Shown here piece after piece: positions 10,922 to 14,913 of a DNA stretch of 64,000 nt. Every line of letters begins with the position of its first letter. The stretch's first letter is position 1. The notes below the pieces were generated by a model. That model was not told the DNA's origin. It did not search any database and saw nothing but the letters and a program-made list of their open reading frames with translations. This DNA comes from Thiotrichales bacterium. GTDB lineage: Bacteria > Pseudomonadota > Gammaproteobacteria > HK1. The translations under genes and the position numbers were made by a program. The DNA lies in the NCBI GenBank assembly GCA_026709935.1, contig JAPOSC010000081.1:1-64000 (forward strand). The letters are read 5' to 3'.

Positions 10922-11908
10922 ATGAGTGGTTCCGGGCTCGAACTTCACGTCGTGCTGGCGGCGCTGCTCATCGATGCCGCGGTGGGTGATCCCGCGTGGT
11001 TCTATCGGCGGGTACCGCATCCGGTGGTGGCGCTCGGCAAGCTCGTCGAACTGTCGGAACGTTGGCTGTACCGGGCGTCGCCCCGCTGGCTCTGCGGGCT
11101 CGGTGGCGCCGCGACGGTGGCGGTGGTGGTCGGAGCCGGCGTCGCGGCCGGCTGGTCCATCGAGCGTTTCCTGATTGCGCGCTGGCCCCATGGCTGGGTG
11201 CTGGAAGGAGTGATCGCCAGCACGTTGATCGCCTTTCGCGGGCTCCACGATCATGCCCTCGCGGTGGCCGACGGGCTCGACCGGAGCCTCGACGCGGGCC
11301 GGGAGGCGGTGAGCCACATCGTCGGCCGCGACCCGGCGAGTCTGGACGAGGCGGGCGTCGCGCGCGGCGCGATCGAATCGGTGGCCGAGAACTTCTCCGA
11401 CGGGGTGGTGGCGCCGCTGTTCTGGTACGGACTGGCCGGGCTGCCGGGGCTCATCGCCTACAAGGCCGTCAACACCCTGGACAGCATGATCGGGCATCGC
11501 ACCGAGCGCTACCGACACTTCGGCACCGCGGCGGCACGGCTCGACGATGCGGTGAACTGGCTGCCCGCCCGCCTCGCGGGCCTGTACTTCGTGGCCGCGG
11601 CCTGGCTGCGGCCCGGCGCGAACGGCGCCCGCGCCGCGCGGGTGATGGTGCGCGACGCCGGGAAGCACCGATCGCCGAATGCCGGCTGGCAGGAAGCCGC
11701 AGTTGCCGGCGCGCTCGACCTCGCCCTCGCCGGCCCGCGACGCTACCGCCACGAGACCGTCGACGACGCCTGGATGGGCGACGGTCGCGCCGAACTCGAC
11801 GCCGGCGACATCAGGCGCGCGCTCCATCTCTACATCACCGCCGGCACGCTGGTCGCGGCGACCTTGGCGACCCTGGCGACCTCGGCGGCGCTCGGGTGGC
11901 TCATCTGA
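10922..11908 (+). CDS. cbiB/cobD: Adenosylcobinamide-phosphate synthase
   Basis: [28 protein letters not shown]...[30 protein letters not shown]. Confidence 0.95.
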
Positions 11909-13353
11909 AGGACGGCGTCGAGGTCCAGGCTCGATTCCAGATGCTCGGCGAGGGCATCGAGCGTCGACTCGATCCGATGCTCGAAGGCGAGGCCGGATGC
12001 GGCCCGGCCGCCGAGGCGTTCGAGGAACGCGGCCCTGAACCCGTCGCTCGCGAACAGGCCATGCAGATAGCACCCCATGACCCGGCCATCGGCGGAGACC
12101 GCGCCGTCCGGCCGCCCGTCGAGATCCAGCATGGGCGCCGACAGCGCGGGGCCGGTCGTTGCCCCCACGTGCATCTCGTACCCCCGGACCGGCCGTCCGC
12201 TCAGGCGCTCGGTGCCGCTCACCTCGACGAGCCGCTTGGCGCCGGCGAGCACGGTATCGAAATCGAGGAGCCCGAGCCCCGGTGCCTCGCCCGGCTCGCC
12301 CTCGACCCCGTCCGGATCCCGGATGACGCGCCCGAGCATCTGGTAGCCACCGCACAGCCCCAGCAGCCAGCCGCCCCGGCGCAGGTGCGCCCGGATGTCC
12401 ACGTCCCAGCCCTGCGATCGGAGGAAACGCATGTCGCCGATGGTCGCCTTCGAGCCGGGCAGGACCACGAGGTCGGCGTCGCCCGGCAGGGCGTGACCCG
12501 GCGCCACGAACCGCACCTCGACTCCGGGCTCGGCGATCAGCGGATCCAGATCGTCGAAGTTGGCGATGCGCGAGAACACCGGGACCGCGGCCACGAGGGC
12601 CGCGTCGGGCCGGGTCTCGGCGTGGCGACCCACCGCCACCGAGTCCTCCGCTGGCAACCGGTGCGCATGCTCGAAGTACGGCACCACCCCGAGACACGCG
12701 AGGCCGGTCCGGCGGCCGATGACCTCGATGCCGGAGTCGAAGAGCCGGATGTCGCCGCGAAACCGGTTGATGATGTAAGCGCTCACTCGCTCCCGTTCGG
12801 CCGGTGACAACAGCGCCATGGTGCCGACGAGGCTCGCGATGACCCCGCCCCGGTCGATGTCGCCCACCAGCGCCACCGGCACGCCGGCGGCCTCGGCGAA
12901 CCCCATGTTGGCGACATCGCCAGCGCGCAGGTTCACCTCCGCCGCGCTGCCGGCGCCCTCCACCAGGATCAGGTCCGCGTCATGGCCCAGACGCTCGAAC
13001 GATTCGAGGATGCGCGGGAGCAGATCGCCCTTGAGACGGTAGTACTCCCGGGCGCGGGCGTTGCGCCAGACCTCACCCTGCACCACGACCTGCGAGCCCG
13101 CATCGGTCTGGGGTTTGAGCAGCACCGGATTCATGTCGCGCGACGGCGCCACGCCACAGGCCCGCGCCTGGAGCGCCTGCGCGCGCCCGATCTCGCCGCC
13201 GTCCGCAGTCACCGCCGCGTTGTTCGACATGTTCTGCGGCTTGAACGGGCGCACCCGCAAACCACGGCGGCTGAACGCGCGACCCAATCCGGCCACCAGC
13301 AGAGACTTGCCGACATCGGAGCCCGTGCCCTGCAGCATGAAGCTGGCCGTCAT
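11830..13353 (-). CDS. cobQ/cbiP: Cobyric acid synthase
   Basis: [59 protein letters not shown]...[10 protein letters not shown]; 3' end overlaps convergent cbiB by ~79 bp. Confidence 0.95.
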
Positions 13354-13627: not shown

Positions 13628-14278
13628 TCAAAACTCGATGCCCTTCTGCGCCCGGACCCCGGCCCGGAACGGGTGCTTCATCATGGTCATCTCGGTCACC
13701 AGGTCGGCCGCCTCGACCAGTTCGGGCTTGGCGTTGCGGCCGGTGACGATGACGTGAAGCATCTCCGGCCGGTTCGACAGAAACTCGACCACTTCGGCCA
13801 GGTCCAGATAACCGTAGCGAAGCACGATGTTGAGCTCGTCGAGCAGCACCATGTCGTACTTGGGGGCGTCCCCGCGTGACGCCTCGATCATCCGCTTCGA
13901 AACCTCCCACGCGTTCTCCGCGGCCCGGATGTCGCGAGCGCGGTCCTGCGTCTCCCAGGTGAAACCCTCGCCCATGGTGCGGATCTCGACCTGATCGGGG
14001 AACTTCTCCAGTACCGCGCGCTCGCCGGTCTGCCACTTGCCCTTCACGTACTGGACGACACCCACCTTCAGGCCGTTGCCAAGCGCGCGCACCACCAGCC
14101 CGAACGCGGCCGTGGACTTCCCCTTGCCCTTGCCGGTGTGGACGATGAGCAGACCCTTCTCGATGGTCTTGCTGGCCAGAATCTTGTCGCGCGCAACCTT
14201 GCGCTTGCGCGCCTTCTCGTTCGCCCGGCGGTTGACCTCGTCTTCGGTGACTGCTTCAGCGGGGAGCTCGTCGGTCAT
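13628..14278 (-). CDS. cobO: Cob(I)yrinic acid a,c-diamide adenosyltransferase
   Basis: MTDELPAEAV...KGLLIVHTGKGKGKSTAAFGLVVRALGNGLKVGVVQYVKGKWQTGE...LLDELNIVLRYGYL. Confidence 0.95.
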   Translation of the reverse strand: MTDELPAEAVTEDEVNRRANEKARKRKVARDKILASKTIEKGLLIVHTGKGKGKSTAAFGLVVRALGNGLKVGVVQYVKGKWQTGERAVLEKFPDQVEIRTMGEGFTWETQDRARDIRAAENAWEVSKRMIEASRGDAPKYDMVLLDELNIVLRYGYLDLAEVVEFLSNRPEMLHVIVTGRNAKPELVEAADLVTEMTMMKHPFRAGVRAQKGIEF

Positions 14279-14604
14279 GACCATCTCCATCAGGTGGCGG
14301 GGCGGGGTGGGGAACCAACCGACCCGCAACATGTGTCCTCGCCGGCTACGCGCACTTCCCGAAGGCAGCCGCGCTACCGGCGCCGCGCACGACCCGGAGC
14401 CCGGCCCGCAACATGGCCCGCACCATGGCAATGACGTTGGCGACGATGCACGCCCGCGGGAACTCGGGGGGCGAGAACGATGGGGGTTTCGGCATGCTCT
14501 CCTCCTCCATCTTGCCGAGGATCAGCATGCGACTCCCGAAAGGAAGGAGCAGAGCGGAACGCGCCCTGTCCACAAGTCGCCCGCATCACCTGCCCGTAAC
14601 GCAG

Positions 14605-14860
14605 ACTCCACTGGAATCAGGCCGGTCTCCGGACTCGCGGCAGTGCCGGTTACCCGGCCTGCTCGCCTACCGTTGCGGGGGCAGTGTCGGAATTGCGATT
14701 CCGGCCCGGATTTCCTGGCCCGGATTTCTCACCAGCTTGCGGCCGCGTCCTCGCTCGCAACCTGGTGAGAAATCCGGGCCGGCGAGCATCGCGCACCGAC
14801 TTCCCGTTTCATCCCGGACGGCCCTGGCAAGCCGCCCGTCGGACACCTGATTCCGGGAAC
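14605..14860 (-). ncRNA. Cobalamin (B12) riboswitch with expanded loop
   Basis: Reverse strand reads GAAACGGGAAGTCGGTGCG ... TTCCGACACTGCCCCCGCAACGGTAGGCGAGC ... GAGTCCGGAGACCGGCC, the conserved cobalamin-riboswitch blocks, upstream of the minus-strand cob genes. Confidence 0.9.
14717..14780. repeat. 19-bp perfect inverted repeat inside the riboswitch loop
   Basis: ggcccggatttctcaccag (14717-14735) / ctggtgagaaatccgggcc (14762-14780). Confidence 0.9.
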
Positions 14861-14913
14861 GCAGTCTGTAGTATCCCCCTCGGGACTGTCAACGAAACCT
14901 CGGAGGACGGGAA

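Follow-up and report, generated by a model that had tools for sequence, protein, structure and literature searches.

Has a riboswitch taken up a copy of its own genome's dispersed repeat, and does it still work with the repeat inside it? This question is raised by a locus on the minus strand of a 64,000-nucleotide stretch of a Thiotrichales bacterium genome (the window), in which an initial annotation, made from the letters alone, had described a cobalamin riboswitch carrying a long hairpin insertion. Riboswitches are known to carry variable insertions, whose origin can seldom be traced. In the present case the insert can be assigned to a repeat family that the genome itself contains. The locus also offers a test, set up by nature, of the amount of added helix that a B12-riboswitch T-loop can accommodate. 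A literature search, mostly of titles and abstracts, found no earlier report of a repeat inside a riboswitch. The riboswitch type and the insertion site are already known, and the finding fits the known tolerance of the cobalamin riboswitch; the novelty lies in being able to show where the insert came from, and in having a second, independent example. In our reading, which we consider probable, this is a working translational cobalamin riboswitch of cobO-cobQ whose L4 helix absorbed the genome's own palindromic repeat.

A cobalamin riboswitch upstream of cobO and cobQ

A cobalamin (AdoCbl-type) riboswitch aptamer, RF00174, was detected by cmscan at 14603-14865 on the minus strand (63.1 bits, E=2.5e-14; gathering score 31.5), as the initial annotation had proposed. 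The match spans the full covariance model (positions 1-189), and the RF00174 search found no other cobalamin riboswitch in the 3.78-Mb genome.

All elements described below lie on the same strand. Based on the covariance-model and congener alignments, the P4 5' strand GTCGG (14796-14800) is followed by T-loop residues UGC (14793-14795), the two together occupying 14793-14800. The T-loop 3' residues AAUU (14691-14694) and the P4 3' strand CCGAC (14686-14690), together 14686-14694, were placed by the model alignment and comparison with relatives. Following the numbering used by PMC2258182 and by PMC10653944, the stem closed by GTCGG/CCGAC is P4 and its loop is the T-loop L4. The kissing loop L5, the CUGCCCCCGCA loop, comes after P4/L4; the L5 region ACTGCCCCCGCAACG (14671-14685) contains the kissing-loop bases CUGCCC. 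Folds and congeners delimit an 11-bp P13 hairpin (14579-14606) whose loop L13, GGGCAG (14590-14595), is complementary to CUGCCC, the kissing role of L5 and L13 being taken from PMC10653944. A predicted hairpin that would sequester the ribosome-binding site (RBS) (14492-14530) covers GGAGGAG and AUG (14493-14495). Judged purely by complementarity, both the L5-L13 pairing and the RBS-hairpin platform are present.

The first recognisable downstream gene is the cobO (corrinoid adenosyltransferase) ORF (13628-14431; PF02572, 1.5e-67; NCBIfam), whose true start is probably internal, and the next operon gene is cobQ (11830-13353; Pfam CbiA and GATase_3). The same two genes follow in this order in congeners G003 and G004, where the full arrangement is riboswitch-cbtB-cbtA-cobO-cobQ (cbtB and cbtA being named from sequence and position). 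In the window, cbtB and cbtA are missing between the riboswitch and cobO (14346-14530), and no CbtA family match was found in this genome. A short ORF of 49-60 aa with no family match now begins at the conserved start codon, with cobO and cobQ after it. Since cbtB and cbtA have been lost from behind the riboswitch, the switch could be under relaxed selection.

A 98-nt hairpin in the L4 T-loop

The two P4 strands (14800-14796 and 14690-14686) flank the T-loop residues and the insert. Measured against the minimal T-loop GGUGC^AAUUCC, which minimal relatives carry as GGUGCAAUUCC, the insert is 98 nt long (14695-14792). The insertion previously placed at 14691-14795 is real, and its extent is shortened from about 105 nt. 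The covariance-model alignment, the fold and the congeners place it in the L4 GNR triloop, after the second nucleotide and before the third, a kind of site described in PMC2258182, and it has a 5-bp base stem GCGAT/ATCGC. It lies between the C and the A of the T-loop, with U, G, C, A, A, U and U all left in place; the U-A pair and the GNR triloop are present and GGUGC^AAUUCC is retained.

The fold, the repeat search and BLAST copies identified 14717-14780 as two units of a dispersed palindromic repeat in inverted arrangement. The 19-bp perfect inverted repeat noted earlier was recovered as arms at 14717-14735 and 14762-14780, extending to 25 nt at 96%, together with an additional 14-nt perfect pair (14701-14714 and 14769-14782). 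The insert also contains a 12-nt direct repeat and, from direct repeat D1, a partial third repeat copy AGGAAATCCGGGCC (14703-14716). Folded alone, the P4 arm reaches -73.1 kcal/mol (z=-6.95), with none of 200 shuffles equally stable; its structure is beyond chance. An Rfam hit to mir-4989 (30 bits, below the gathering score of 49) was rejected as a chance match to a long hairpin. A terminator role was also rejected, because the insert is located within the aptamer and has no T-run behind it.

The L4 site in relatives

The insertion site had been described as a normally short loop. This description is only partly right: in the L4 T-loop, a helix is known to interrupt the GNR triloop (PMC2258182), and all five genus riboswitches carry extra sequence there. 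The L4 inserts of congeners G002-G005 are 20, 20, 14 and 28 nt long and form ordinary hairpins without the repeat. We compiled 131 relative loci, of which 43 were preselected for length and 20 more picked for overall length; P4 was resolved in 116. The T-loop A is kept in 116/116 of these, most have an extra L4 helix, and their inserts measure 0 or 9 to 103 nt, although outside the length-preselected set most are 0-29 nt. The P4 arm studied here is the longest of an 89-member sample, itself partly picked for length (120 nt vs a median of 39 nt). The insert studied here is unusual in its length and repetitive origin but not in its position, and L4 inserts of 99-103 nt exist in other species.

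A scan of 84,980 species genomes returned 43 long-arm matches, of which about 39 hold as probable riboswitches. Among the rest, L160 and L171 are pattern artefacts, L152 has no B12 box in the short sequence examined, and L168 is a tRNA-Met and not a riboswitch. The 3' end of this tRNA-Met (L168:3826-3902) fits the B12-riboswitch consensus CTGCCCCCGCAAC, a trap for motif scans. Five cobalamin riboswitches of Herbaspirillum (L135, L151, L157, L164 and L173) have long L4 arms of mostly different sequence, which suggests fast turnover at this site.

Several species of Herbaspirillum, Nitrococcus and Lysobacterales have long L4 arms, indicating that such arms can persist. Together with the perfect pairing of the arms over 19 bp, this recurrence could mean that the insert gained a function of its own, for example by serving as a site for an RNase or a protein, or by tuning folding kinetics or ligand affinity as an added helix. 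We regard this as very unlikely, given that the long arms of different groups share no sequence by eye, that the long arm is absent from the congeners, and that perfect arms are also expected from a recent insertion.

The insert derives from a genome-wide repeat family

The 15-nt core TGAGAAATCCGGGCC occurs at 60 genome sites with at most two mismatches, compared with 2 for the reversed control. A BLAST search with the arm gave 56 matches in the same genome, while matches in congeners were fewer and weaker. The idea of a palindromic element residing within an otherwise intact riboswitch was thus supported by the genome search, and the element is absent from this position in the four congeners. 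The left half of the insert, CCAGGTTGCGAGCGAGGACGCGG, is similar to the tails of other repeat copies, as is the right half, CCAGCTTGCGG; the best reading of the insert is therefore a pair of repeat units in opposite orientation. Elsewhere in the genome, the family also forms tandem arrays (L099:135-463, L093:39-171, L095:686-938 and L089:82-333). Their units alternate in orientation with a period of about 118-119 nt (spacings of about 42 and 77), a BIME-like layout.

The many dispersed short palindromic copies (60 sites against 2 in the control) are as in REP elements. For a REP-associated tyrosine transposase (RAYT), the genome offered one IS200-like TnpA relic only, and no such repeat was found near 19 Y1 transposase loci across the family. 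Because no associated RAYT was found, we call the repeat REP-like only. The relic (L080:1501-1860; G000:C5:18335-18694) has two in-frame TGA codons, and no other Y1 transposase was found in the genome; it was rejected as the mobiliser, there being no repeat copy near the TnpA locus. Neither this genome nor the 19 family Y1 loci yielded a mobilising transposase for the repeat.

A second case was found among the probable riboswitches of the scan. L136, from an uncultured gammaproteobacterium, contains an RF00174 riboswitch (75.1 bits) with CCCTCTCCCGGAGGGAGAGGG in its L4 helix, and this palindrome has about 11 sites in its own genome at two mismatches (control, 0). This suggests that repeat capture was not a single accident. 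The insert of L138 is single copy and that of L153 has two weak partial matches; neither is a clear repeat, and repeat capture is thus not the rule for long arms. A broader proposal, that palindromic repeats settle time and again in the T-loop helix site of riboswitches, act as a general source of variable insertions and sometimes gain a regulatory role, is one we would put forward tentatively, as doubtful.

Is the switch still intact?

The core boxes agree nearly base for base with the three closest congeners, P13 is near-identical in three congeners, and L5 is identical in congeners. The Shine-Dalgarno sequence and AUG are conserved in the congener alignment, and the hairpin over them folds both here and in G004 despite different stem sequences. 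The earlier view that the rest of the riboswitch is intact was upheld, with core boxes, T-loop residues, P4, L5, P13/L13 and the RBS hairpin all present and conserved in congeners. Judged from this conservation, the switch is most likely still functional.

Some observations would instead fit an insertion that damaged the switch, leaving a dead or constitutive leader that drifts neutrally after the loss of cbtB and cbtA. The RF00174 score is the lowest of the five genus members (63.1 bits vs 78-82 in congeners), although the long insert plausibly accounts for at least part of the difference. Nested thermodynamic folds of the whole leader yield little native P4, whose mean pair probability is 0.06 with the repeat and 0.15 without it; such folds leave out the kissing loop, the T-loop tertiary contacts and the ligand, and for this reason do not settle intactness. 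With the core boxes, T-loop residues, L5, L13, P13 and RBS hairpin all matching the congeners, and with RBS-hairpin arms that differ from those of G004 yet still pair, we consider a damaged switch unlikely.

A functional switch that absorbed the repeat therefore remains our preferred reading. Starting from what sequence comparison establishes (the riboswitch, the insert, its repeat family, its absence from congeners, and an intact core and platform), we propose the following history. A standard translational cobalamin riboswitch would control the cobO-cobQ operon, its ancestral L4 T-loop already bearing a short optional helix. Insertion of one or two units of the dispersed palindromic repeat into this helix would have followed, perhaps with a slippage-like partial duplication afterwards. 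Being self-complementary, the repeat would form a long autonomous hairpin that lengthens the optional helix outward. The T-loop U-A pair, P4 and the kissing loop would be undisturbed, and the switch would thus still work: B12 binding would stabilise the L5-L13 pairing and the RBS hairpin, lowering translation. We infer this order of events, a continued B12 response and the neutrality of the insert.

Comparison with known systems

The riboswitch shares its aptamer, its insertion site and a hairpin outside the core with RF00174 members having a helix-interrupted P4 T-loop (Barrick and Breaker 2007, PMC2258182). It differs from them in the length of the insert (98 nt here, 0-29 nt in most relatives) and in the insert being a genome-wide repeat. 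The repeat itself resembles REP and BIME elements in that its palindromic units are short and GC-rich and occur in many copies, in inverted pairs and in arrays; unlike them, it has no REP-associated transposase beside any copy examined, and here it lies within a structured regulatory RNA. A further parallel is L136, an RF00174 riboswitch whose L4 helix likewise bears a repeated palindrome, but the repeat, CCCTCTCCCnnnGGGAGAGGG, is unrelated and the insert is about 57 nt long.
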